From Saccharopolyspora sp. NFXS83 (GTDB lineage: Bacteria; Actinomycetota; Actinomycetes; Mycobacteriales; Pseudonocardiaceae), in assembly GCF_026241095.1 (NCBI RefSeq), contig NZ_JAPFGB010000016.1, positions 62,001-126,000 of the forward strand: a DNA stretch of 64,000 bases, in the 5' to 3' direction. Below are positions 14,055 through 55,206 of this stretch, one piece after another (the stretch's first letter is position 1; each line of letters begins with the position of its first letter). The translations under genes and the position numbers were made by a program. The notes under the pieces are model-generated. The model did no database searches. It worked only from the letters and a program-made list of their open reading frames with translations, and had not been told where the DNA came from.

Positions 14055-14319
14055 GATCAGTTCTCCTTGGTGTCGCGAGTGGGGCTCGGTTCCCGGCCCG
14101 GCGCCGGGGTGCGGTGCCGGGACGGGAACCTGGTGAGGCCGTCCGGTGCGGGTGTCGACGACCCGAAGGGGTCGCGCGGAGCCACGTGCCACTCCAGACG
14201 ATCAACGCGCTCCACATCGGCACTCCGGCGACCGCTCTTGATCCCTTGCGGAGCGATGCCCCTCGATCGAGTGGTCTTCGGCCACTCGTCCTGCGGGCGG
14301 AGGGGGAGGCAGGGCCGGT

Positions 14320-28220: not shown

Positions 28221-28235
28221 TGAACATGATTATCG
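28221..28235 (+). promoter_or_regulatory. Zur-like box in front of the metallophore operon
   Basis: TGAACATGATTATCG matches the 7-1-7 actinobacterial Zur box TGAAAATGATTTTCA at 12 of 15 positions. It lies 40 bases upstream of the ATP-grasp gene and 46 from the divergent hydrolase gene. Confidence 0.55.
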
Positions 28236-28274
28236 TTACCGTCCGCTAGTGGGCAACGGTGCGGAGGAGTCGGA

Positions 28275-29543
28275 GTGGGTCACCTGCTGATGGTGGAAAG
28301 CTGGGTCGGGGCGATGAGCACGTTGCTGCCCCGAGGAATCCGGGACGGGGGCCACCGATTCAGCTTCCTCACCCGGGACGTGCAGCACTACCTGCGCGCG
28401 TGGAACCGGCCCGGCGCTCATCCCTTGCTCGGCGCGGAGAACGTGCTCCACGCCGAGACCAACGAGGTGGCTTCGCTGGTCGAACACGTCGCGAAGCTCC
28501 AGCCCGCGCTGGGATTCGACGGTGTGCTCACCTCGTGCGACTACTACCTTGGCGCGACCGCGCACCTCGCTCAGCACCTCGGTTTGCCGGGCTCGCCACC
28601 GGAAGCGGTGGCTCGCGCCTGCAACAAGGACCAGACCCGATTAGCCCTGCGCGAGGCTGGGGTCGCCGGGCCGGCTTTCGCGCTCGCCGACGGCGCCTCC
28701 GGGCTGCGCGAAGCGGCCCTGGCCCTCGGGTTCCCGCTGGTGATCAAGCCGGTCGACCTGTGCGCGGGAATGTTCGTGCGCAAGGTGTCGAACGAGGCGG
28801 AACTGAGCGAAGCGGTGCGTGAGCTGGAGGGCTTCCCGGTCAACGCACGCGGGCAGCGCCGCAGTGGCACCGTGCTGCTCGAAGAGCTGTTGACCGGCCC
28901 CGAAGTGAGCGTGGAAGCGGTGACCGCGCACGGTCGAACGACCGTCGTCGGAGTGACGGACAAGAGCATCGCGGGCGAGTCCTGCTTCGTCGAAACGGGG
29001 CACATGTTCCCCGCCGCTCTCGACGCCGGCACGGAGCAGGCCGTCACCTCGGTCGCCGTCGCCGCCATCGAGGCGCTCGGTTTGGACAACACCGTCACCC
29101 ACACCGAGCTCAAATTGACCCCGATGGGACCTCGCATCGTCGAGGTCAACCCGCGCCCGGCGGGCAACCAGATCACCGAGCTCGTCCGGCGGGTGACGGG
29201 GATCGACCTGCCCGCGGTGCACGCGCAACTCGCGTTGGGAGAACCACCGCGGCTGGCGGCCGACTCGACAGGTGCGGGCAGCGCGGCGATCTCCTTCCTG
29301 CTCCCGCCTCGGACCGGGCCGATCGATCGGATCGACGGTGCAGAGGGAATTCACGAGATCAGCGGCGTCGTCGACAGCGCCTTCAAAGCGGCGGGGCACG
29401 TGGCGGGGCCGGCGACCAGCAACAACAACTACCTCGGCCACGTCATGACGACCGATCCGGAGCCCGGTGCGGCGCGAGCTCGTGCCGAGGCGGCGATCGG
29501 CTCCCTGGAGGTCGTCTACGCAGCGGATCTGGTCGGCGCATGA
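28275..29543 (+). CDS. ATP-grasp ligase of a probable metallophore pathway
   Basis: A 422-residue ATP-grasp enzyme. Residues ~110-300 hold the core: FPLVIKPVDLCAGMFVRKV (ATP lysines), VLLEELLTGPEVSVEAV, and RIVEVNPRPAGNQITELV with the metal-binding Glu and Asn. It should form an amide between a carboxylate and an amine through an acyl phosphate, like the L-amino acid ligases. GTG 28275 has GGAGGAG 5 bases upstream. It is the first of six genes with 4-base overlaps and stands behind a Zur-like box. I infer that it joins amino-acid building blocks of a metal-chelating compound; the substrates are unknown. Confidence 0.8.
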   Translation: MGHLLMVESWVGAMSTLLPRGIRDGGHRFSFLTRDVQHYLRAWNRPGAHPLLGAENVLHAETNEVASLVEHVAKLQPALGFDGVLTSCDYYLGATAHLAQHLGLPGSPPEAVARACNKDQTRLALREAGVAGPAFALADGASGLREAALALGFPLVIKPVDLCAGMFVRKVSNEAELSEAVRELEGFPVNARGQRRSGTVLLEELLTGPEVSVEAVTAHGRTTVVGVTDKSIAGESCFVETGHMFPAALDAGTEQAVTSVAVAAIEALGLDNTVTHTELKLTPMGPRIVEVNPRPAGNQITELVRRVTGIDLPAVHAQLALGEPPRLAADSTGAGSAAISFLLPPRTGPIDRIDGAEGIHEISGVVDSAFKAAGHVAGPATSNNNYLGHVMTTDPEPGAARARAEAAIGSLEVVYAADLVGA

Positions 29544-30373
29544 AGGACGCCTTCCTGTCATTGGACCGGTTCACCGCAGCCGTCGGAGCGGGGATGGCGG
29601 GTGAGGAGGTCGACGAAGCGACGGTGAGCGTCGGTTTCCTCACCCAGCAGGGTGTGCGGCATTCCGGGCGCGGGAGCTCCTACCGCAACCATGTGCTGAG
29701 CTTGCGGGTCGAGGACTCCGTCGGATCGTGCGCCGTGGAGCCGGGAGTGCTGACCGACGAACTGGTCGTCGAGTGCGTCGGTGCTCCGGTCGGCCGGTTG
29801 CTGCGGCATCCGGAGCCCGCGGTGCGCATCGCGGCGGCGGACGCGTACTTGATGTGGCGGCGCCCGCACCACGAGCACGCGGAGGAAGTCCGGCTTCGCC
29901 GCGGAAGTTCCCTGCAGAAGTCGTTGCAGCGGGCCGACGTCGTGGTCGGGATGGTGCCGGAACACGCTCGCCGGGTCTTGGTGATCGGAGTGGTGAACTC
30001 GCTGCTCCACCAGCTCCGCCGTCGCGGTGTCGACTACGTCGCCTGCGACTTCAAAGGCGGTGTGACCGAGTGGGGCGAACCGATCGTGCACGACGCCATG
30101 GCCGAGGTCGGTGGCTGCGATGCCGTGCTGGCTTCCGGGATGGTCGCGGGCGGCGAGACCTTCGAACCGTTGCTGGCGCACGTGCGCGCCACCGGAACAC
30201 CGCTGGTCATGTTCGCGCAGACCGCGAGCGCGGTGTTGCCGTGGTTCCTCGGTTCCGGTGTCACCGCGATCTCCGCCGAGCCCTACCCGTTCTTCTGGCT
30301 CGACGGCGGCGCCAGCTCGATCTACCGCTACTCCGGTCCGCGGAATCCGGAGCCAGGGAAGGACATTCGTTGA
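29540..30373 (+). CDS. DUF4213/DUF364 protein (putative heavy-metal chelation)
   Basis: A 277-residue protein. The N-terminal ~90 residues (SVGFLTQQGVRHSGRGSSYR) fit DUF4213 and the C-terminal part (VLVIGVVNSLLHQLRRRGVD, SGMVAGGETFEPLLAHVR, PLVMFAQTASAVLPWF) fits DUF364, a Rossmann-like domain Pfam calls putative heavy-metal chelation. ATG 29540 overlaps the ATP-grasp stop (ATGA). Family members occur next to molybdate, iron or siderophore genes. In this operon it may bind a metal or act as an enzyme in metallophore assembly. No cysteine-rich metal site is visible, so the role is open. Confidence 0.72.
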   Translation: MKDAFLSLDRFTAAVGAGMAGEEVDEATVSVGFLTQQGVRHSGRGSSYRNHVLSLRVEDSVGSCAVEPGVLTDELVVECVGAPVGRLLRHPEPAVRIAAADAYLMWRRPHHEHAEEVRLRRGSSLQKSLQRADVVVGMVPEHARRVLVIGVVNSLLHQLRRRGVDYVACDFKGGVTEWGEPIVHDAMAEVGGCDAVLASGMVAGGETFEPLLAHVRATGTPLVMFAQTASAVLPWFLGSGVTAISAEPYPFFWLDGGASSIYRYSGPRNPEPGKDIR

Positions 30374-31455
30374 TCGACCTCAGCACGAGCCCGGCCCGAG
30401 CGGCAAACCCGGACCTGCTGTCGCTGATGCGGGACACACCGGTCACCCGGATCAGCACGCCGCTGCCGGATCACCAGCCGGGATTCTGGGCGAAGCTCGA
30501 ATGCCTCGGCGCCGGCGGCATGAAGGCGCGCGCCGCGATCGCGATGCTGCGCGGAGCCCGTTCCCGCGGCGAACTCCGGCCCGGAGCGCCCGTCGTGGAG
30601 TCGACCAGCGGCACCCTCGGGATCGGGCTCGCCTTCGCCGGTCAAGCGCTCGGACATCCGGTCGTGCTCGTCGTCGACCGGGAATTGGAGCGCAGCATGC
30701 GGTCGCTGCTGCGTGCGCACGGCGTCCGGACCGAGGTCGTCGACCGCCCGCACCCCGCGGGAGGCTGGCAGCAGGCCCGGCTGGATCGGGTGCACCAGCT
30801 GTGCGCGGAACTGCCTGACGCTTACTGGCCGGACCAGTACAACAACCCGGACAACCCGGCCGGATACGTGAAGCTGGCGGAAGAACTCGTCGCCCAGCTC
30901 GGTTCGGCCGACACCCTGGTCTGCAGCGTCGGGTCGGGCGGGCACAGCGCGGGCATCATCCGCACGTTGCGGCGGCACTGGCCCCGGCTGCGCCTGATCG
31001 GGGTCGACACCGTGGGCTCGACGATCTTCGGGCAGCCCGCGCGACGCCGCCTCATGCGAGGGCTCGGCAGCAGCATCTTCCCGCGCAACGTCGCCTACGC
31101 CGAGTTCGACGAGGTGCACTGGGTGGGTCCGGCCGAAGCCGTCGACGCCTGCCGCCGGCTCGCCGCGCACTCCTTCGTCAGCGGGGGGTGGAGCACCGGC
31201 GCGGTCGCCTTGGTGGCGGGCTGGGAAGCCCGGCGCGAGTCCGGTTCCCAAGTCGTCACCGTCTTCCCCGACGGGCCGCACCGCTACCTCGACTCGATCT
31301 TCGACGACGACTTCTGCCACGAACACGGCCTGCTCGGCGGACGACCGGCGACCCGCCCGGTGGAGATCGCCGACGCCGCGGCCGTCGAAGTGCACGGCTG
31401 GGCGCGGTGCGGTGCCGTTCACGACCCCGCGCGGTCCGCGGAGGTGCCCGCGTGA
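30370..31455 (+). CDS. Cysteine-synthase-like PLP enzyme
   Basis: A 361-residue fold-type II PLP enzyme. The PLP lysine is in GAGGMKARAAIAM, in the place of the SVKDR of CysK, and ESTSGTLGIGLAFAG corresponds to the TSGNTG substrate loop; VGSGGHSAGI is the phosphate-binding glycine loop. In siderophore clusters such proteins (SbnA-like) make 2,3-diaminopropionate precursors by beta-replacement on activated serine; here the altered loop suggests another nucleophile. TTG 30370 overlaps the preceding TGA and has GGAAGGA 7 bases upstream. A C-terminal ~40-residue extension beyond CysK is present. Confidence 0.75.
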   Translation: MIDLSTSPARAANPDLLSLMRDTPVTRISTPLPDHQPGFWAKLECLGAGGMKARAAIAMLRGARSRGELRPGAPVVESTSGTLGIGLAFAGQALGHPVVLVVDRELERSMRSLLRAHGVRTEVVDRPHPAGGWQQARLDRVHQLCAELPDAYWPDQYNNPDNPAGYVKLAEELVAQLGSADTLVCSVGSGGHSAGIIRTLRRHWPRLRLIGVDTVGSTIFGQPARRRLMRGLGSSIFPRNVAYAEFDEVHWVGPAEAVDACRRLAAHSFVSGGWSTGAVALVAGWEARRESGSQVVTVFPDGPHRYLDSIFDDDFCHEHGLLGGRPATRPVEIADAAAVEVHGWARCGAVHDPARSAEVPA

Positions 31456-32480
31456 AGCTCACCTGGCACACCGGCACGCTGCGGCTGCGGGAGCCGTTTC
31501 GCATCTCCCGCTCCGTCATGCACGAACGGGACGCGGTGTGGATCGACGTGTCGCACGACGGGCACATCGGGCACGGAGAAGCCGTCACCAGCGTGTACTA
31601 CGACCTCGACGTCCCGCGAATCGTCACCCAGCTCGAAGCGCTGCGACCGGTCATCGACAGCAGCGACGATCCCGGCGAACTCATCGCCGAGGCACGGCGG
31701 TGGGCCGCGCTCGATCCTGGGCTGCGGTGTGGCATGGAAGCCGCGGTACACGACCTGGCGGCGAAATGCCGCGGCATCACCGTGCGAGAACTGATCGGCG
31801 CACCGGAATTCGAGACCGCGCGGACGGCCTGCACCATCGGCATCGTCGACACGGCTCACGCGGTGCGAACCGCCACCGACCTCGTCGCCAGAGGATTCGG
31901 CGTCCTCAAAGTCAAACTCGGGGACGGCGCCGAGGACGTGGCCAGGGTGGCGGCGATCCGCGAGGCCGCTCCCGACGCCCGGCTGCTGCTCGACCCCAAC
32001 GGAGCCTGGGCCCCGGATCAGGCGGTGCGCATCCTCGAAACCCTGGAACCGCACGGGATTTCCGCCGTCGAACAACCCATCCGTCCCGGCACGCCAGCGG
32101 ATCTCGGGTGGGTCGCCCAGCGCAGCCCCATCCCCGTGATCGCGGACGAAGACGCGCACACGATCGACGACGTCCGCGAACTCGGATCTTCCGTGCAGGG
32201 GGTGAACGTGAAACTGGCCAAGTGCGGCGGCATCCAGGCCGCCGTCGAGATCATCGAAACGGCTCGGTCCGCCGGTGTCGACGTGATGCTCGGATGCCTG
32301 GTCGCCAGCTCGCTGGGCATCGCTCCCGCGGTGCACCTCGCCGGATTCGCCCGCTGGACGGACCTCGACGGACACCTGCTGCTCGCCGACGACCCCTGGG
32401 ACGGGATCGGAGGGATCGACGGAACCCTGCGGCTCAGCGGACGCCCAGGGCTGGGCGTGCGGCCGAGGTCAACGCCATGA
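31452..32480 (+). CDS. Enolase-superfamily dipeptide-epimerase-like protein
   Basis: A 342-residue protein of the muconate-lactonizing/dipeptide epimerase branch. The acid-base lysines are in VLKVKLGDG (second lysine of KxK) and NVKLAKCGG; metal ligands are DPNGAW, EQPI and IADED. This set is that of L-Ala-D/L-Glu and related dipeptide epimerases, which invert an alpha carbon. It overlaps the previous gene by GTGA. With an ATP-grasp ligase upstream, a ligate-then-epimerise scheme giving a D-configured residue in the product is plausible; N-succinyl amino acid racemase activity is the alternative. Confidence 0.8.
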   Translation: MKLTWHTGTLRLREPFRISRSVMHERDAVWIDVSHDGHIGHGEAVTSVYYDLDVPRIVTQLEALRPVIDSSDDPGELIAEARRWAALDPGLRCGMEAAVHDLAAKCRGITVRELIGAPEFETARTACTIGIVDTAHAVRTATDLVARGFGVLKVKLGDGAEDVARVAAIREAAPDARLLLDPNGAWAPDQAVRILETLEPHGISAVEQPIRPGTPADLGWVAQRSPIPVIADEDAHTIDDVRELGSSVQGVNVKLAKCGGIQAAVEIIETARSAGVDVMLGCLVASSLGIAPAVHLAGFARWTDLDGHLLLADDPWDGIGGIDGTLRLSGRPGLGVRPRSTP

Positions 32481-33760
32481 CGACGTGGAGGCTCGTCCGG
32501 AGCTTCCCGGTCGCCGTGCAGGTACTGCTGGTCAACCAGCTCGGCGTCAACATCGGGTTCTACCTGCTCATCCCGTACCTCGCCGGTTACCTCGGGCACG
32601 ACCTGGGCATGTCCGCCGCCCTGGTCGGAGTGGTGCTCGGAGTGCGCAACCTGAGCCAGCAAGGCCTGTTCCTCCTCGGCGGCACCGCTGCCGACCGGCT
32701 CGGTGCGCGCGGGGTCATCATCGCGGGATGCGCGCTGCGCACCGTCGGGTTCGGCCTGTTCGCGCTCGGCACGTCGCTGCCGATCCTGCTGGTCGCCTCG
32801 ATTCTCAGCGGGCTGGCCGGGGCGTTGTTCAACCCCGCCGTGCGCTCCTACCTCGCGCAGGAGACGGGGGAGCGGCGAGCCGAGGCGTTCGCGTTGTTCA
32901 CCGTGTTCGCGAACACGGGGGCGCTGATCGGGCCGCTGCTCGGCAGCGCGCTCGTCGTCATCGGCTTCGCCACTTCCGCGCTCGTCGCCGCGCTGGTCTT
33001 CGCGCTGCTCACCCTCGCGCAGATCGCGGTGTTGCCGTCCAGGCCAGTGCCGCCGGCGCGCAACACGGTCCTGCGGGACTGGCGCGGCGTGCTCGGCAAC
33101 AAGAGGTTCCTCATGTTCACGCTCGCGCTGACCGGGATGTTCGCCCTGCAGAACCAGCTCTACCTGGTCCTGCCGATGGAAGCGGCCCGGCTCACCGGAT
33201 CCAGCGGCACCGTCGCCGCCGTGTTCATCGTGTCCACGGTGACCGGACTGCTGCTGCAAGTCCGCATCACCAGGTTCTGCCAGCGGAAGTGCTCCCAGAG
33301 CAGCGCCATCGCGGCGGGCATGGGCATGATGGGGCTGGCGTTCCTCGCCACGGTGCTCGGCGGGCTCGCCATCCCCGATGCGCCCGCCGCGCTCGACTTG
33401 CCCGAAATGCTGCTCAGGCTCAGCCCGGTGCTGGTGGCGACGCTCGTGCTCACCCTGGGACTGCTGGTGGCGCAGCCGTTCGTCAACGACCTCATCCCCT
33501 CATTCGGGCCGAACGCCCTGTCCGGCACCTACTTCGGGGTCTTCTACCTGGCCGCAGGGGTCACGGCGGCAGCGGGCAACGCGGTGATCGGCCGGGTGAG
33601 CGACGTCGCCGCGCACCCGTGGGCACCGTCCGCGCTGTGCCTCGGCCTCGGACTCGCCTCGGCCGCCGCGGTGTTCGTGCTGCACCGCAACGGACTCGCA
33701 GGTCCGGAACCGACTTCGAAACCAGGAGCCTCCGCGTGCACAACGATGCCAACTTCCTGA
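32477..33760 (+). CDS. MFS transporter, probable metallophore exporter
   Basis: A 427-residue major facilitator with about 12 membrane segments. The loop between helices 2 and 3 reads GGTAADRLGARGVI, the DRxGRR-type signature. It is in the middle of the biosynthetic operon (ATGA overlap with the epimerase, and its last 25 bases overlap the methyltransferase). By position it corresponds to the exporter of known metallophore clusters (for example CntE for staphylopine). It would export the chelator to the outside for uptake by the ABC system downstream. Substrate is inferred from context only. Confidence 0.82.
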   Translation: MTTWRLVRSFPVAVQVLLVNQLGVNIGFYLLIPYLAGYLGHDLGMSAALVGVVLGVRNLSQQGLFLLGGTAADRLGARGVIIAGCALRTVGFGLFALGTSLPILLVASILSGLAGALFNPAVRSYLAQETGERRAEAFALFTVFANTGALIGPLLGSALVVIGFATSALVAALVFALLTLAQIAVLPSRPVPPARNTVLRDWRGVLGNKRFLMFTLALTGMFALQNQLYLVLPMEAARLTGSSGTVAAVFIVSTVTGLLLQVRITRFCQRKCSQSSAIAAGMGMMGLAFLATVLGGLAIPDAPAALDLPEMLLRLSPVLVATLVLTLGLLVAQPFVNDLIPSFGPNALSGTYFGVFYLAAGVTAAAGNAVIGRVSDVAAHPWAPSALCLGLGLASAAAVFVLHRNGLAGPEPTSKPGASACTTMPTS

Positions 33761-34521
33761 CCGACAACCCCGAGCTCTACGAGGAGCAGTTCCCCGACCC
33801 GGAACACCTCGCCGCGCGGTTCGTCCTCGACCTGATCGGCCGGTACGGAGGCGGGGAGGACTTGCTCGACGTCGGCTGCGGCAGCGGTCGCGATGCCGCG
33901 CACTGGTCGCGGAACGGGTACCGCGTGACCGGAATCGACACGTCGCCGCGGATGATCGAACACGCGCAACGGCAATGTCCCGACGGCATATTCGCTCTCG
34001 CCGACATGCGCACGTTCCGGCTTGAGGCCGCATTCGATGCCATCACGTGCCTCGACAGCGCTTTCCTGTACTGCCACACGAATTCCGATCTCGACGATTT
34101 TCTCGAACGGTGTCGCGCACACCTGCGTCCCGGTGGGCTGCTCATCGCCGAAATGCGCAACGGGGCGTTCTTCCTCGGCAACTCCGAGTTGCTCGACGGT
34201 ATTCGGGAACGGTCCGTGCAGTGGAAAGGGGTGGCGTATCGATCTCGGACCCGGCTGTGGATCGATCACGCCGAGCAGTTGCTGCGGCGAGAACGGATAT
34301 GGGACTGGCCGGATTGCGGGCGAGAACTCATCCAGCGATCCGCCTGGCGCCTGCTCTTCCCGCAGGAGCTCCGCCGAATCCTCGGCCAAGCGGGTTTTGA
34401 CGTGCTCGCCATGTTCGACCACCCCGGCCCGCGCACCGACCCGGCCTGGCACCCCGGCGCGGACCTCAGCGCCGCCCTCTCCGGCGACCGCCTCCACCTC
34501 ATCGCCCAACGCACCGCCTGA
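33736..34521 (+). CDS. Class I SAM-dependent methyltransferase
   Basis: A 261-residue methyltransferase. Motif I is LLDVGCGSGRDAAHW near residues 41-55, followed by GYRVTGIDTSPRMIEHA and a post-motif CLDSAFLYC; the C-terminal half has a mostly beta architecture ending in LHLIAQRTA. GTG 33736 is preferred: AGGAG is 8 bases upstream, and the gene overlaps the end of the MFS gene. It likely N- or O-methylates the product or an intermediate of the pathway. It closes the biosynthetic operon and is followed by a perfect palindromic repeat. Confidence 0.82.
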   Translation: MHNDANFLTDNPELYEEQFPDPEHLAARFVLDLIGRYGGGEDLLDVGCGSGRDAAHWSRNGYRVTGIDTSPRMIEHAQRQCPDGIFALADMRTFRLEAAFDAITCLDSAFLYCHTNSDLDDFLERCRAHLRPGGLLIAEMRNGAFFLGNSELLDGIRERSVQWKGVAYRSRTRLWIDHAEQLLRRERIWDWPDCGRELIQRSAWRLLFPQELRRILGQAGFDVLAMFDHPGPRTDPAWHPGADLSAALSGDRLHLIAQRTA

Positions 34522-34530
34522 GCTCGTGGT

Positions 34531-34582
34531 GCGAGGAAGGGAACCTTCCTGTCACCGGTGACAGGAAGGTTCCCTTCCTCGC
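34531..34582. repeat. Perfect 52-bp palindromic repeat copy between biosynthesis and uptake genes
   Basis: The best copy in the window: both 26-base arms are exact complements, centre CACCGGTG. It lies 10 bases after the methyltransferase stop and 39 before the second Zur-like box. Confidence 0.93.
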
Positions 34583-34621
34583 GGGGGCGTGGCGTGAGGT
34601 AGATCCCCTTTCGAGGGTTGT

Positions 34622-34636
34622 TGAAAAGTATTATCG
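34622..34636 (+). promoter_or_regulatory. Zur-like box in front of the ABC uptake operon
   Basis: TGAAAAGTATTATCG fits the Zur box at 11 of 15 positions; the flanking bases also extend pairing (GAAAA and TTTTC, 9 bases apart). It and the box at 28221 are identical at 16 of 21 aligned positions including flanks. It is 69 bases upstream of the binding-protein ATG. Confidence 0.55.
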
Positions 34637-34704
34637 TTTTCTTTTGGTGTGGCTGGTCGGGTGGCCGGCGGTGAAGGCATCGGAACCGGAATGGAGGGCC
34701 GCGC

Positions 34705-36282
34705 ATGGAGTCCGAGAGGTCGGTCGTGTACTCGTCTGATCGGAACCCGGTGACGAGGCGGGGTTTCTTGGGACTGACTGCGGCGGTCGCACTGGCGGCG
34801 GGCGTGTCGGGATGTGCCGCGGGGGGTTCCGGTCAGGGTGCCGGGGCGCCGCGGCCAGGTGGCCGGTTGCGCGCGGTGTTTCCGGGCGGAGGTGCCGATG
34901 AGGTGCTGGATCCGCACACCACGGATCTGTACGCCGAGGTCGCCCGGGCGAAGGCGCTGTTCGACAAGCTCGCGGATTACGGATCCGACATGTCGCCGCA
35001 GCCGCGGCTGGCTGAGCGGTGGGAGTCGAGCGCGGACCTGCTCACCTGGCGAGTTCCGCTCCGGCAGGCCGTGTTCCACGATGGAAAGCCGCTGCGCGCC
35101 GACGACGTGTTATCGAGCTACGCGCGCATCCTGCGCCCCGACAGCACGCGCCGCGCCAAGGCGAGCCTCTCGGTGATCGACCTCGCCAACAGTCGCGCGA
35201 TCGACGACCGCACCGTCGAGTTCCGGCTGAAACGCCCCTATGCGGAGTTCCCCAACGCGCTCGCCACCCTGGGCGCCTACATCGTCCCGGAGGGCGCGCA
35301 GAACTTCGACCACCCCATCGGTTCAGGCCCGTTCCGGTTCACCTCGTTCGAGCCGGGCCGCAGTTTCCTCGCTACGCGGAACCCGGACTACTGGGAGGGC
35401 GCGGCGCACCTGGACGAGCTGGAAATCCTGGTCAGCAATGACGAATCCGCCCGGGTCAACGCACTGCTCGGCGATCAGGCGGACTACGCGCACGACTTGA
35501 CCGCCACCACCGCCCGCAGCCATGAGGAAGCCGGTCAGATCCAGATCCACCGGCTTCCGTTGAGCAACTTCCACGCGTTGGCGATGAAGGTGGACCGTCC
35601 GCCGTTCGACCGGCGCGAGGTTCGACAGGCGTTCTTCCACCTGATCGACCGCGAGGAACTCGTCCGGTCGGTGCTGCAGGGGTCCGGTGAGGTCGCCAAC
35701 GACCTTTTCGGCAAGAACTACCAGTACTACAACGGGGCACTGCCGCAGCGGCGGCAGGATCTGAACCAGGCCAGAACGCTGTTGCGGCAGGCGGGCGCGG
35801 AGAACCTGACGGTCGAACTGCTCACCTCCGAGGCGTCGCCAGGTTTGCGCGAAGCCGCGCTGGCCATCGCGGACCAGGCGAAGCAGGCAGGGGTGACGGT
35901 CAAGGTGACCCTGGGAAACAAGGACACCTACTGGTCGGACATCGCCGAGCAAGGGTCCGTGGTGAGCTACCGATCCGGAGCGATGCCGATCGAGTCCCAC
36001 ATCTCGCAGCGGCTGCTGTCAGGTTCGACGACGAACAACACCAAGTGGCAGCGTCGCGAATTCGACGAGCTCTACCACCAAGCACAGGCCACATCGGACG
36101 AACGCGCCCGCACCGAGCTCTACATGGAGATGCAGCGCGAACTGTTCGAAGAAGGCGGCTTCCTGTGGTGGGGCGTGTCGGACTGGATCGTGGCGTCGGC
36201 GAACCGGGTCGGCGGGATCGATGACCGCGCACCGGCGAACACCTTGGACTGGGCTCGGTTCGACAAGGTGTGGATGGGGTGA
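34705..36282 (+). CDS. ABC transporter substrate-binding lipoprotein (peptide/nickel family)
   Basis: A 525-residue family 5 solute-binding protein. The N-terminus has a twin-arginine motif (TRRGFLG) and then a lipobox VSGC with cysteine at residue 37, so it should be exported, perhaps through Tat, and anchored as a lipoprotein. The binding domain is typical of Dpp/Opp/Nik proteins: LAERWESSADLLTWRVPLR, GSGPFRF and the family 5 signature. ATG 34705 has GGAGGG upstream. It starts a four-gene operon with two permeases and a fused ATPase, as in the CntABCDF metallophore importer, and is placed just after the biosynthetic genes. Confidence 0.88.
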   Translation: MESERSVVYSSDRNPVTRRGFLGLTAAVALAAGVSGCAAGGSGQGAGAPRPGGRLRAVFPGGGADEVLDPHTTDLYAEVARAKALFDKLADYGSDMSPQPRLAERWESSADLLTWRVPLRQAVFHDGKPLRADDVLSSYARILRPDSTRRAKASLSVIDLANSRAIDDRTVEFRLKRPYAEFPNALATLGAYIVPEGAQNFDHPIGSGPFRFTSFEPGRSFLATRNPDYWEGAAHLDELEILVSNDESARVNALLGDQADYAHDLTATTARSHEEAGQIQIHRLPLSNFHALAMKVDRPPFDRREVRQAFFHLIDREELVRSVLQGSGEVANDLFGKNYQYYNGALPQRRQDLNQARTLLRQAGAENLTVELLTSEASPGLREAALAIADQAKQAGVTVKVTLGNKDTYWSDIAEQGSVVSYRSGAMPIESHISQRLLSGSTTNNTKWQRREFDELYHQAQATSDERARTELYMEMQRELFEEGGFLWWGVSDWIVASANRVGGIDDRAPANTLDWARFDKVWMG

Positions 36283-37226
36283 ACCTTCGGCGCTACGTTG
36301 TCCGGCGAGTACTGCTGGGCGTCGTTCAAGTCCTCCTCGCCATGGTGCTGGTGTTCCTCTTGACCGAGGCGTTGCCGGGTGACGCGGCGGTCACCGCCGC
36401 CGGGGACAATCCGGACCCGGCGATCATCGAGCTGATGCGTGAGCAGCTGGGGCTGAACGCACCGTGGTGGCAACGTCTCGGCGAGTGGATGTTCGGGGCG
36501 GTGCAAGGGAACTTCGGCCGGTCGTTGGTCGGACCTCACTCCGTCCTGGACATCATCGGTTCTTCCGTCGGCCCCACCTTGTTGCTGGCGATGTTGACGC
36601 TGGCCCTGGTCGTACCGGTGTCGTTGGGGCTCGGGATCCTCGCCGCGAACAGGGAAGGTCGCCTCGCCGATCGCGTCATCACCTCCACGACCCTCGGGCT
36701 GTACTCGGTTCCCGAGTTCGCGATGGGAATTCTGCTGGTCACGGTGTTCGCCGTGCAGCTCGGCTGGCTACCGCCGACGGCCGTCGGCGGTAGCAACCTG
36801 CTGAGCCGTCCGGACGTGCTGGTGCTGCCCGTGCTGGTGCTGTTGCTCCGCCCGATCTGCTCGCTGAGCAGGCTGATCCGAGCAGGAATGATCGAAGCAC
36901 TGCAGTCGGGATTTGTGCAGCAGGCGCGGCGCTGCGGGCTGTCACCCCTGCGGGTTCAGCTGGCTCATGCGTTGCCCAACGCCGCCGTTCCCGCCGTGCA
37001 GCAACTCGCGCGGACGACCGACTGGCTCATCGGCGGCGTCATCGTCGTGGAGGCGATCTTCGTGATCCCAGGGCTGGGTACGACGCTGATCGAGGCGGTC
37101 TCCGCACGTGACCTCCCGGTGATGCAGGGGTTGTCCCTGGTGTTGGCGAGCGTGACCGTCCTGGTGAACCTCGCCGCCGACATCGTTGCTCGCCTTCTCG
37201 CACCGGCTGCGGAGGTAGACGGATGA
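36279..37226 (+). CDS. ABC transporter permease (NikB/DppB type)
   Basis: A 315-residue membrane protein with six predicted helices. MNLRRYVVRRVLLGVVQVLL is the usual first helix of DppB-type permeases and the EAA loop lies around QQARRCGLSPLRVQLAHALP. GTG 36279 overlaps the binding-protein stop (GTGA); GTG 36270 gives three extra residues and is less likely. It pairs with the next permease to form the channel of the uptake system. Confidence 0.88.
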   Translation: MNLRRYVVRRVLLGVVQVLLAMVLVFLLTEALPGDAAVTAAGDNPDPAIIELMREQLGLNAPWWQRLGEWMFGAVQGNFGRSLVGPHSVLDIIGSSVGPTLLLAMLTLALVVPVSLGLGILAANREGRLADRVITSTTLGLYSVPEFAMGILLVTVFAVQLGWLPPTAVGGSNLLSRPDVLVLPVLVLLLRPICSLSRLIRAGMIEALQSGFVQQARRCGLSPLRVQLAHALPNAAVPAVQQLARTTDWLIGGVIVVEAIFVIPGLGTTLIEAVSARDLPVMQGLSLVLASVTVLVNLAADIVARLLAPAAEVDG

Positions 37227-38014
37227 GGCGCTTCGTGATCCCGGGCGCGCTGATCGCCCTGCCGATCGTGCTGGCGGCGTTCGGGCCGATCTTCGCGTCC
37301 ACCGACGTGGCAAAGGACATCGCGTTCAGCAGCGGCGCCGGGCATCTGTTCGGCACCGACTTCGTCGGCCGAGACGTGTGGAACGAAGTGCTTCTGGGCG
37401 GTCGCTCGGTCGTGCTGATCGCTGTGGCGGCGACCCTGTGCACGTACCTCGTAGCGGTCCCGATCGGGGTCGCGGTGGGGATGAGCCGGTCCAGGTTCCT
37501 CGGCGAAGTGGTGATGCGGCCCCTGGACATCGTCCTGGCGGTACCGTCGATGCTCTTGTTGCTGTTGCTGGCTTCCACGGCACCGAACGTCATGTGGGCG
37601 CTGGTCGTGATCGTCACGGTGATCAACCTTCCGGATGTCATCAGGATTTCGCGAGCCTCGGCGCTCGCGATCTCAGCGAGACCGGCAGTCGAGGCGATGT
37701 GCCTCCAAGGGGAGAACCGGCTCCGCATCGGTCTCGGCTATGTCGCGCGGGCCATGGTGCGAACATTGGCCGCGGATTTGGGAATCAGGTTCACCGGCGC
37801 CGTCTACCTCGTCGCGTCGGCGAGCTTCCTCGGTGTCGGGGTGTCCCCGCAGACCAGCGATTGGGCGGCGATGGTGGATCGCAACCGCACCGGCCTGTTC
37901 CTGCAGCCCTGGGCGGTTGTGCTGCCCGCACTGCTGATCGTGGCATTGTCGGTGGGGGTCAATCTGGCGTTCGACCAGCTGTTGCGCAGGAAGCGGCGAG
38001 AGGTGCGCACGTGA
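37223..38014 (+). CDS. ABC transporter permease (NikC/DppC type)
   Basis: A 263-residue permease, shorter than DppC (about 300) because the N-terminal helix is brief (MRRFVIPGALIALPIVLAA). FGTDFVGRDVWNEVLLGGR is the typical DppC-family segment after the first helix, and the EAA-like loop is near MCLQGENRLRIGLGYVA. ATG 37223 overlaps the NikB-like stop. It forms the heterodimeric channel with the previous protein. Confidence 0.87.
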   Translation: MRRFVIPGALIALPIVLAAFGPIFASTDVAKDIAFSSGAGHLFGTDFVGRDVWNEVLLGGRSVVLIAVAATLCTYLVAVPIGVAVGMSRSRFLGEVVMRPLDIVLAVPSMLLLLLLASTAPNVMWALVVIVTVINLPDVIRISRASALAISARPAVEAMCLQGENRLRIGLGYVARAMVRTLAADLGIRFTGAVYLVASASFLGVGVSPQTSDWAAMVDRNRTGLFLQPWAVVLPALLIVALSVGVNLAFDQLLRRKRREVRT

Positions 38015-39582
38015 ACGTCGTCGATGTCGGCGAGCTGAAGGTTTCGCTGGGCGCCCGGCCCGTCGTCGCCGGAGTGTCGTTCGCCATGGCGGCCGGCGAG
38101 GTGACCGCGCTGGTGGGGGAGTCCGGCAGTGGCAAGACCACCACCGGACTCGCGCTGCTCGGTGAGCACCCGCCCGGTGCGGAGGTCGACGGCGAAGTAG
38201 TAGTGGCCGGTCATCGCGTGGAAGCCGAACGTCCACCCGCCCCCGGCCAGATCGGCTACATCCCGCAGCACCCCTCGGCTGCGCTCAACCCGGTCCGCCG
38301 TGTCGGCTCGGTGCTGCGCGAGATCGCGCGCCGCCACATCGGCGCGGTTCCGCGCGCGCAACGCAAGGAACTGGTGCGCACCAAGGTCGCGACCGCGTTG
38401 CGCCGAGCTCAGCTTCCCGAAGGGGACACCCTGCTCAACCGCTACCCGCACCAGCTCTCCGGTGGGCAGCAGCAGCGCATCCTGCTTGCCCAAGCGCTGG
38501 TGTGCGACCCGGTCGTGGTGATCGCGGACGAGCCCACGACCGGGCAGGACGCGCTCACGCGCGGACAGATCGTGGAGGAACTGCGAGGCCTCTCCGAGCT
38601 GGGAATCGCCGTGCTGCTGCTGACCCACGACCTCGACGTGGTGCGACAGCTGGCGCACCACGTGTTGGTGATGCGGGCCGGGTCGGTCGTCGAATCCGGC
38701 CCCGCTGCCGAGGTTCTGAGTTCGCCTGCGCACGCCTACACGAGGCTGCTGGTCGAGTCGCAGCCCGACGGCCGTGCGCCGCTCGGTACCGGCGATGCCG
38801 ATTCCCCAGCCGCGGTGGTCTCCGCACGTGAACTGGTCGCCGGACACCGTGCGCGGGGGAGGTTCACCGAGACCTTGCACGCGGTGTCGCTCGAGATCCG
38901 AGCGGGCGAGCGCATCGCGGTCGTGGGTCGTTCCGGCAGCGGGAAGACGACGCTGGCCCGATGCCTCGCCGGTCTGCACCCGCCCCGGCACGGAGCGGTG
39001 CTGCTCGACGGAACGCCGCTCGCCGCTCGATTGCGCGGGCGCACCCGCGAACAACTGGCGGACATCCAGTACGTCTTCCAGGACGCCCGCGCATCGTTCA
39101 ACGAGTTCGCACCTGTCGTCGACCAGGTCGCCAGGACCGCGGAACGGCTTCGAGGCGTTGATCGACGAGAGGCTCGCCGCCAGGCCGGCGGGTGGTTCCA
39201 GCGAATCGGACTCGGCCCGGAGATCACGGCACGGCTGCCCGAGTCGTTGTCCGGTGGCGAGTTGCAACGAGCCGCGCTCGTTCGGGCGCTGCTCGCGGAT
39301 CCGCGGGTCCTGATCTGCGATGAGATCACGTCCGGGCTGGACACGGTCACCCAAGCCGAACTTCTCGGCGTGCTGAAGGAACTCCAGAGCGCAGCGCAGT
39401 GCGCGTTGGTGGTGATCACGCACGACCTGGGAGTGGTGGCCGACCTGGCCGAGCAGGTCGTGATCGTCGATGAAGGTCACATCGTCGAACAGGGGCCGGC
39501 CGCGGAAGTGCTGCGTGCTCCACAGCATTCGATGACGTGTGCGCTGATCGAGGCGGCGACGAGCCGAATCGCTCGGGCCTGA
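38011..39582 (+). CDS. Fused double ATP-binding subunit of the ABC importer
   Basis: A 523-residue protein with two complete ATPase domains in one chain, equal to NikD plus NikE or DppD plus DppF. The first has GESGSGKTTTG (Walker A), LSGGQQQR (signature) and VVIADEPTTG; the second has GRSGSGKTTLARC, LSGGELQR and VLICDEITSG. GTG 38011 overlaps the permease stop. Two-domain fusions are frequent in actinomycetes. It powers import of the metal-loaded compound together with the binding protein and permeases. Confidence 0.9.
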   Translation: MNVVDVGELKVSLGARPVVAGVSFAMAAGEVTALVGESGSGKTTTGLALLGEHPPGAEVDGEVVVAGHRVEAERPPAPGQIGYIPQHPSAALNPVRRVGSVLREIARRHIGAVPRAQRKELVRTKVATALRRAQLPEGDTLLNRYPHQLSGGQQQRILLAQALVCDPVVVIADEPTTGQDALTRGQIVEELRGLSELGIAVLLLTHDLDVVRQLAHHVLVMRAGSVVESGPAAEVLSSPAHAYTRLLVESQPDGRAPLGTGDADSPAAVVSARELVAGHRARGRFTETLHAVSLEIRAGERIAVVGRSGSGKTTLARCLAGLHPPRHGAVLLDGTPLAARLRGRTREQLADIQYVFQDARASFNEFAPVVDQVARTAERLRGVDRREARRQAGGWFQRIGLGPEITARLPESLSGGELQRAALVRALLADPRVLICDEITSGLDTVTQAELLGVLKELQSAAQCALVVITHDLGVVADLAEQVVIVDEGHIVEQGPAAEVLRAPQHSMTCALIEAATSRIARA

Positions 39583-39720
39583 GCGTGCGACGGAGATTTC
39601 GGGACGACGCGGCGGCGTGCGGTGCGAGGAGGGGAGCATGCCTCCATGGTTCGCCGTCGAACGTGCGTTCGTCATCGCTGAAGCGGGTGGAGCTCGCGTC
39701 GCCCGATCTTGCTCGCTAGG

Positions 39721-40329
39721 TCACCCGGCGTAGTCGACCTCGGACAGGGCGGTTGCATTCGAGTGCAGCGCTCCCGCCCGGCCCGGGATCGAGATCTCGA
39801 AGTGGACGCTGGGGCTGTACCGAGGGTCCTGGCGGGCGTCGTAGATCTCCGTCGCCGCGCTCTGCCAGAACGGCGCGGCGCCCTCGATCGCGGGGTTCGT
39901 GTGCAGGTAGATCGTTGAGTACTCCGGCGTGGCCGACACGAAATCGCAGGCCATCGACACCAGTGCGCTCGCCAGGCCGTGGCGGCGGTGCTCGCGGTCC
40001 ACGTAGACGCGGAACAACTGGGCCGTCCGGCCATCGCCGTACCGGGCCGCCAGCCACTCCGGATGCGGTGGGCATCGCGGGCCGCCCGAACGGATCGCCG
40101 TCGTTGCCGCGACTTGTTCGTCCCGCACCGCCACGAACAGCGCGTGGCGCGGGTTGTTCAGGTACGCGCCTTCGATGTCCACGACATCCGAGTGCCAGCG
40201 GGCGTGGTAGCCGTGCCCGAACTCCTTGTAGAAGGTGTCGAGCATGACCCGCCGGGCGCCCTCGACGTCTTCGCGGCGGGCTCGGCGCACGACGTACTCG
40301 CCGATCCGGTGCTCTTCCTGGTGATCCAT
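39721..40329 (-). CDS. GNAT-family N-acetyltransferase
   Basis: A 202-residue GNAT protein. The acetyl-CoA motif A is LFRVYVDREHRRHGLASALV (V-x4-R-x2-G/A pattern), preceded by a beta-strand region AATTAIRSGG. ATG 40329 is preceded by GGAG about 6 bases upstream; the longer frame reaching 40395 lacks one. A Zur-like box 74 bases upstream puts it in the same suspected regulon as the metallophore genes, which end 140 bases away on the other strand. It could acetylate the metallophore or an unrelated amine; the target is unknown. Confidence 0.78.
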   Translation of the reverse strand: MDHQEEHRIGEYVVRRARREDVEGARRVMLDTFYKEFGHGYHARWHSDVVDIEGAYLNNPRHALFVAVRDEQVAATTAIRSGGPRCPPHPEWLAARYGDGRTAQLFRVYVDREHRRHGLASALVSMACDFVSATPEYSTIYLHTNPAIEGAAPFWQSAATEIYDARQDPRYSPSVHFEISIPGRAGALHSNATALSEVDYAG

Positions 40330-40402
40330 GTGCTCTCCATCGGGTTCTCGCGCCTGAGTCGCCGAGGAACGCGACTTCTGGTGCGCCGATCCCACAATAC
40401 AA

Positions 40403-40417
40403 TGACTCTCGTTTTCA
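40403..40417 (-). promoter_or_regulatory. Zur-like box upstream of the GNAT gene
   Basis: On the minus strand TGAAAACGAGAGTCA fits the Zur box at 11 of 15 positions and is the weakest of the three: the left half is good, the right half poor. Confidence 0.4.
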
Positions 40418-54970: not shown

Positions 54971-55206
54971 GGGTAAAGGATGATCGTGCGCTGCTCCGCC
55001 CGCACTGCTCAGCGGCGACCACTCGGCGGACGGTCGTCCCGTCGCGCTGGGCGGTCGTGCGGCGCCGCCACGAGGAATAACGTTCGGCCCGCCTGCGTTC
55101 CAGGTCAACGCATTCGGTCTGGCAGAATGACAGGCCGAGTCGGCTCCGGTTCACCTCGCGATGACGGTCGACGAGGACCCGGCGGCCCCGAACAGGAGGA
55201 CACGCT

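Follow-up and report, generated by a model that had tools for sequence, protein, structure and literature searches.

A putative Zur-repressed locus for a small zinc metallophore in Saccharopolyspora, and relatives of its core genes behind cobalamin riboswitches

What does an actinobacterium make with an amino-acid ligase, a DUF364 protein, a pyridoxal-phosphate (PLP)-dependent enzyme, an epimerase and a methyltransferase, and why do the genes lie next to an exporter and an ATP-binding cassette (ABC) importer? This combination occurs in a 64,000-nucleotide stretch of Saccharopolyspora sp. NFXS83 (contig NZ_JAPFGB010000016.1, positions 62,001 to 126,000; hereafter the window). A preliminary description, made from the sequence alone, had proposed a Zur-controlled locus for a small amino-acid-derived chelator. 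Our analysis suggests that the locus is very probably repressed by Zur and serves a small zinc metallophore made without a nonribosomal peptide synthetase (NRPS). A metallophore fits the combination of predicted zinc control, an exporter, an importer and a few enzymes that join amino acids, and we found no description of this gene set in the open-access literature searched.

Reading the open reading frames together with Pfam and NCBIfam profile scans, we identified six overlapping genes (A-F) at 28275-34521 on the + strand, followed by importer genes (G-J) and an acetyltransferase gene (K):

28275..29543, + strand: A, ATP-grasp L-amino-acid-ligase-like protein with LAL_C2 (Pfam above cut-off; PDB 3vot/BacD)
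29540..30373, + strand: B, DUF364-fold protein
30370..31455, + strand: C, SbnA/CysK2-like PLP-dependent enzyme, PALP (TTG start assumed)
31452..32480, + strand: D, enolase-superfamily (MR_MLE) dipeptide epimerase-like protein (profile and PDB matches)
32477..33760, + strand: E, major facilitator superfamily (MFS) exporter (Pfam)
33736..34521, + strand: F, class I methyltransferase (Pfam and PDB matches)
34705..36282, + strand: G, solute-binding lipoprotein, family 5, nickel/peptide type (Pfam, NCBIfam)
36270..37226, + strand: H, ABC permease (start at 36270 or 36279; Pfam, NCBIfam)
37223..38014, + strand: I, ABC permease (Pfam)
38011..39582, + strand: J, fused NikD/NikE-like ATPase (NCBIfam)
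39721..40329, - strand: K, GNAT acetyltransferase (open frame to 40395; Pfam)

Every gene named in the preliminary description was recovered on the strand it gave, and its overlaps of 4 bases or more were borne out: A/B, B/C (if C starts at the TTG), C/D and D/E overlap by 4 bases each, and E/F by 25. As it had also stated, families of nicotianamine synthase, opine dehydrogenase and NRPS are absent from the Pfam matches of A-I and K and from the NCBIfam matches listed for A-H, J and K (up to 25 each for A, F and J).

To describe the relatives of this locus we use three types. Type I is A-B-C-D-E-F-G-H-I-J(-K), as in the window; type II is B-C-E with or without G-J; and type III has more distant B and C proteins, accompanied in annotated examples by a FecCD-type importer, an MFS protein and in some a GHMP kinase. 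Protein B was found in 35 of 150 relatives and, in any type, in 93 of 297 family genomes (E 1e-60). A scan of all genomes found at least 516 stretches encoding a relative of B (two patterns; one gene may count twice), and the gene set is therefore not rare. The best 80 of these stretches, ranked by similarity to the window's B, are the named actinobacterial loci; they belong to Saccharopolyspora, Streptoalloteichus, Actinokineospora, Lentzea, Micromonospora, Actinoplanes, Nonomuraea, Frankia, Streptomyces, Embleya and others. Choice by B similarity favours type I; the accompanying genes were themselves unselected. The preliminary description had asked whether the six-gene set recurs in other genomes with this ABC type and with Zur boxes. 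A, B, C and D are present in all 80 named loci, and A to J are intact and in order in 71. Three of the nine incomplete loci end at a contig edge (L238, L265, L266), three have a missing F match as their sole gap (L206, L227, L230), and the others lack G and H (L213), E-J (L221) or F-J (L222). A match to K lies in the stretch of 50 loci, and copies of type I are found on plasmids in Streptomyces angustmyceticus and Rhodococcus sp. ZPP.

We searched for Zur-like boxes with the 15-position consensus TGAAAATGATTTTCA, scoring matches from 11/15 or 12/15 upward and using the reversed pattern as a control. The window holds five sites of at least 11/15, against 0.9 expected. Two are intragenic (35420 and 37779), and three precede A, G and K, in their promoter regions:

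28221..28235, + strand: Zur-like box before A (12/15; 39 bases upstream of A)
34622..34636, + strand: Zur-like box before importer operon G-J (11/15)
40403..40417, - strand: Zur-like box before K (11/15)

Among the 78 named loci with enough sequence, 68 have a box of at least 11/15 within 300 bases upstream of A, and 47 have one of at least 12/15. Upstream stretches totalling 26.5 kb hold 47 matches at 12/15, versus 15 in 1,526 kb elsewhere, and the reversed pattern gave none in these loci. In the family sample, each of the 14 type I loci, the window's among them, carries a box of at least 11/15 that starts 53-71 bases before A, and boxes were also found in three of five further A-bearing loci of type I or hybrid form (L128, 11/15 and before A; L130; L135). 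The box before G is present too in L035, L036 and L037, and at 11/15 was not found in most other family loci. A 12/15 box occurs somewhere in the stretch of 15 of 19 type III loci (L052-L070); none was found in type II loci.

Across the whole host genome, matches of at least 12/15 gave 19 rows at 17 places and the reversed pattern none; in genomes G385 and G067 the reversed pattern gave 3 and 1. The strongest host box (14/15; L186, host contig C67, near 40592) reads as lying between isopenicillin-N-synthase-like and nuclease-like genes, with no zinc link seen. Seven boxed stretches outside the cluster, from the host genome, G385 and G067, were looked at. In one host locus (L191), which serves as a control, a 12/15 box lies between the zinc-importer genes aztA and aztB with AztC downstream, all three proteins scoring above their NCBIfam cut-offs, and in G385 a 13/15 box precedes an SbnB/LysA/SbnA/MATE operon (L185). 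Together with the conserved gene set, the boxes make a strong case for the predicted Zur control, and the assignment of the window genes as a Zur-controlled metallophore locus is well supported at the sequence level.

Beyond what the preliminary description had noted, the core shared by types I and II (B-C-E) is also found behind a cobalamin riboswitch, with A, D and F missing. A conserved leader, first spotted by eye in six type II loci, proved to be this riboswitch (Rfam RF00174); an iron box had been considered for the six upstream regions, with a best match of 11/19, and was rejected. The riboswitch is present in all 23 type II loci tested, on the same strand as B and 117-253 nt upstream of it. 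The first 11 loci scanned, each with a riboswitch, include a second B-C-E copy of the host itself (L004; host genome G000, contig C45), where the element spans 14067-14234. This copy has no G-J match within its stretch and, by gene reading, a geosmin-synthase-like gene nearby. A second set came from the 297 genomes, searched with a type II B: of the top 24 matches, 11 were already done, G004 was omitted, and the 12 new loci were fetched unseen. All 12 have both the riboswitch and B-C-E, and 8 have G-J. None of 18 control sources carries the riboswitch (seven type I loci, seven type III loci, the window, L037, L066 and L128).

The riboswitches of type II (23/23) and the boxes of type III (15/19) are independent links between the B-C core and metals. 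The occurrence of B-C-E under Zur-like or B12 control suggests zinc and cobalt versions of one chelator family: a bare B-C-E behind a B12 sensor would fit a cobalt version, and the addition of A, D and F, seen with Zur-like boxes, may shift metal preference. Cobalt is the less secure of the two readings, because cobalamin riboswitches also govern genes unrelated to cobalt uptake, such as metE, as passages of one paper describe (PMC11260477).

More distant relatives show further combinations. Type III loci (L052-L070, L137, L138) encode a DUF364 protein with a PALP enzyme and are a candidate second zinc metallophore family; we take their GHMP kinase to be a possible serine kinase. One hybrid (L128, G388) joins A-B-C-E to a GHMP kinase, FecCD parts and a GNAT, with no match to D, F or G-J, and in L066 the type III B and C stand together with G-J. 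C also occurs without B in 15 fetched loci from Amycolatopsis-like, Mycobacterium-like and other genomes; E is present in 14, and the C homologues are 53-61% identical to the window's C. No 12/15 Zur-like box lies before C in these 15 loci (two lie elsewhere, in L124 and L126), and the fetched stretches hold no full importer. In Amycolatopsis-like and Mycobacterium-like genomes, we initially took the C-E pairs for genes of the aminopolycarboxylate [S,S]-ethylenediaminedisuccinate (EDDS) and later dropped this assignment. Genome G385 has two C-E pairs (L115, L116), and the neighbours of L115 read like copper genes. For L158 and L159, gene reading places the SbnA-like genes beside an NRPS-like gene and in another cluster.

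The enzymes themselves are consistent with the joining of amino acids. The nearest PDB relatives of A are BL00235 and BacD (3vot), and A has the ATP-grasp and LAL_C2 domains of L-amino acid ligases with an E-x-N-x-R motif, presumably the ATP-grasp site, whose E290, N292 and R294 are at least 95% conserved in 81 sequences. D is closest to 3iji and dipeptide epimerases and carries what we take to be their motifs: a KxK (K153/K155), the D/E/D metal ligands (D181/E207/D232), a second lysine (K254) and a DxD for the amine (D304/D306), all at least 95% conserved in 80 sequences; NCBIfam epimerase cut-offs are not reached. These residues, with the gene order and box counts given above, support the small amino-acid-derived chelator with MFS export and ABC import that had been proposed. 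F has PDB matches that include amino-sugar N-methyltransferases at a low similarity that does not fix the substrate. G-J match NikA/CntA, Opp/Nik permease and NikD/CntF models, with only J above cut-off (NikD), and with E they bear out the suggested likeness to staphylopine transport (an MFS exporter and a CntABCDF-type importer).

B scores 21.4 bits against Pfam DUF364 (PF04016), marginally below the cut-off of 23; its predicted structure (predicted local distance difference test score 91.8) has a DUF364 fold by Foldseek and VIA-align, which upholds the earlier family call at the level of a model. B differs from the DUF364 proteins Dhaf4260 and PH1506, with 11-14% identity. Passages of the 2010 structure paper describe metal transporters as gene neighbours of these two proteins, with function unproven, and propose from the neighbours that DUF364 might act in metal-chelator synthesis (PMC2954201).

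The closest family model for C is SbnA (TIGR03945; 254.2 bits, short of the cut-off of 349.95), as is its best PDB match, and the lysine of its MK motif is kept, aligned with the VK of an SbnA-family row. The altered loop attributed to C is there (STSGTLG) and is shared by the CysK2-like C-E protein that was aligned with C. In a tree of 58 sequences, starred clades are formed by the C-E pairs, by type III, by the II' copies, and by types II and II' combined. The 20 type I rows do not form a single clade: 16 group together, and L136 sits with three Micromonosporaceae type I rows on an open fork. The EDDS and SbnA rows lie on long branches, and their placement is unsure.

From these features we infer a possible route. 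Under low zinc, Zur would leave the three boxes and units A-F, G-J and K would be expressed. C would make an aminoacrylate from an activated serine, probably O-phosphoserine, and join it to an amine; the core would then be finished by B in a putative second step. Types I and II have B, C and the exporter E in common. In the form found in the window, A would ligate an amino acid onto the core, D would invert one stereocentre of the resulting dipeptide, and F would methylate the product. E would then export it, and lipoprotein G with the permeases and ATPase H-J would return the metal complex.

How does this locus compare with known systems? It resembles the opine zincophores staphylopine and pseudopaline in its predicted zinc-linked control, an exporter, a peptide/nickel-type or FecCD-type ABC importer and a short enzyme set without NRPS. 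Passages of an opine zincophore survey describe the same two importer types, dipeptide/oligopeptide and FecCD (PMC7438024). Unlike those systems, A-F include no match to nicotianamine synthase (CntL) or opine dehydrogenase (CntM) and instead combine the B-C core with an ATP-grasp enzyme, an epimerase and a methyltransferase. Since the two defining enzymes were not found among these matches, the locus is not of staphylopine type. C likewise recalls the 2,3-diaminopropionate module SbnA/SbnB of staphyloferrin B, from which the window differs in the sub-threshold score of C (254 bits against a cut-off of 350) and in having no SbnB match.

We had initially suspected an EDDS cluster. The EDDS genes (aes) of Amycolatopsis japonicum are likewise actinobacterial; they are Zur-controlled, as is predicted for the window genes, and were reportedly found by Spohn et al. 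in 2016 through Zur sites. The boxed G385 operon (L185), whose identity as aes is inferred, shares an SbnA-like enzyme and an exporter with the window. Its four genes (SbnB-like, LysA-like, SbnA-like and MATE) include no DUF364, ATP-grasp, enolase or methyltransferase gene, and we therefore took the locus to be a different system. A type III B query gave no match in G385, in a search that had no positive genome and is thus uninformative. By the enzymes tested, the locus is neither EDDS-type nor opine-type. Zur control is described for EDDS and coelibactin in passages of one paper (PMC6103462) and for EDDS in passages of another (PMC9252823), and the excerpted antiSMASH 7 paper lists aminopolycarboxylic and opine-like metallophores among its types (PMC10320115).

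Three other explanations deserve weighing. A rearranged aminopolycarboxylate pathway (EDDS- or EDHA-like), in which C would produce N-(2-amino-2-carboxyethyl)-amino acids and B would stand in for SbnB, would, chemically, fall within the metallophore reading; the SbnA-like character of C and the Zur-like box and SbnA-like enzyme of L185 speak for it, but no SbnB-like (OCD) protein or LysA/SbnH-like decarboxylase, both present in L185, is among the window protein matches listed, and the enzyme of the EDDS locus is distant from C in the tree, its branch being long and insecurely placed. We consider it somewhat unlikely. Less probable still is a dipeptide antibiotic or antimetabolite, induced by zinc limitation, with E for self-resistance and no metal carried. 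The likeness of A to BacD and BL00235 and of D to dipeptide epimerases would suit such a product, yet a complete ABC importer adjoins in 71 of 80 loci and the sister clusters without A, D and F carry a B12 riboswitch. A sulfur or copper-stress role, as for the mycobacterial CysK2-MFS pair, with zinc control secondary, appears most doubtful of the three. It draws on the C-E loci without B, including the one beside copper-like genes, which we take to be of CysK2-Rv0849 type and which share homologous C with the window. CysK2 and RicR also occur together in excerpts of the same papers. Against it, the C-E pairs group in a clade separate from types I and II (99/98), and unlike the window they have no B, no 12/15 box before C and no complete importer in the fetched stretches.

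Several points weigh against a Zur-controlled zinc metallophore. The consensus TGAAAATGATTTTCA was taken as given and not derived from these data, 10 of the 78 named loci and two of the five further A-bearing loci (L131, L136) have no box at 11/15, and five of the seven extra boxed stretches (L186-L190) adjoin no recognisable zinc or chelator gene; two of these five are stronger boxes in the host genome, still with no zinc gene by gene reading. Family 5 solute-binding proteins import peptides as well, and we know of no DUF364 protein with a proven reaction. The 80 loci, chosen by likeness of B, are uninformative on how often B occurs without the other genes, and types II and III show that it does.

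Other elements of the window include a 36-base palindrome (GGGAACCTTCCTGTCACC-type, at most 3 mismatches) with nine copies, against 0 expected by chance. One copy lies between F and G, whose 183-base gap contains this palindromic element, and another beside K:

9349, 10733, 21887, 23337, 25475, 26691, 34539, 40460 and 54534: copies of the GGGAACCTTCCTGTCACC-type palindrome
55140-55187: L31-Actinobacteria ribosomal protein leader (Rfam RF03158)

We tentatively propose, as something possible though short of probable, that a metallophore class so far unrecognised is founded on a DUF364 protein and an SbnA/CysK2-like enzyme, that added enzymes tune the metal, with a zinc form controlled by Zur and a bare cobalt form by a cobalamin riboswitch, and that the host makes both. 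If true, this would place DUF364, whose fold was determined in 2010 with no function assigned, in the context of a reaction, and would define a metallophore route that needs no NRPS, nicotianamine synthase or opine dehydrogenase, spread in many actinobacteria (probably hundreds of species), Streptomyces among them. It would also provide an apparent dedicated cobalt metallophore, whose B12 switch could be compared with its zinc counterpart within one genome.

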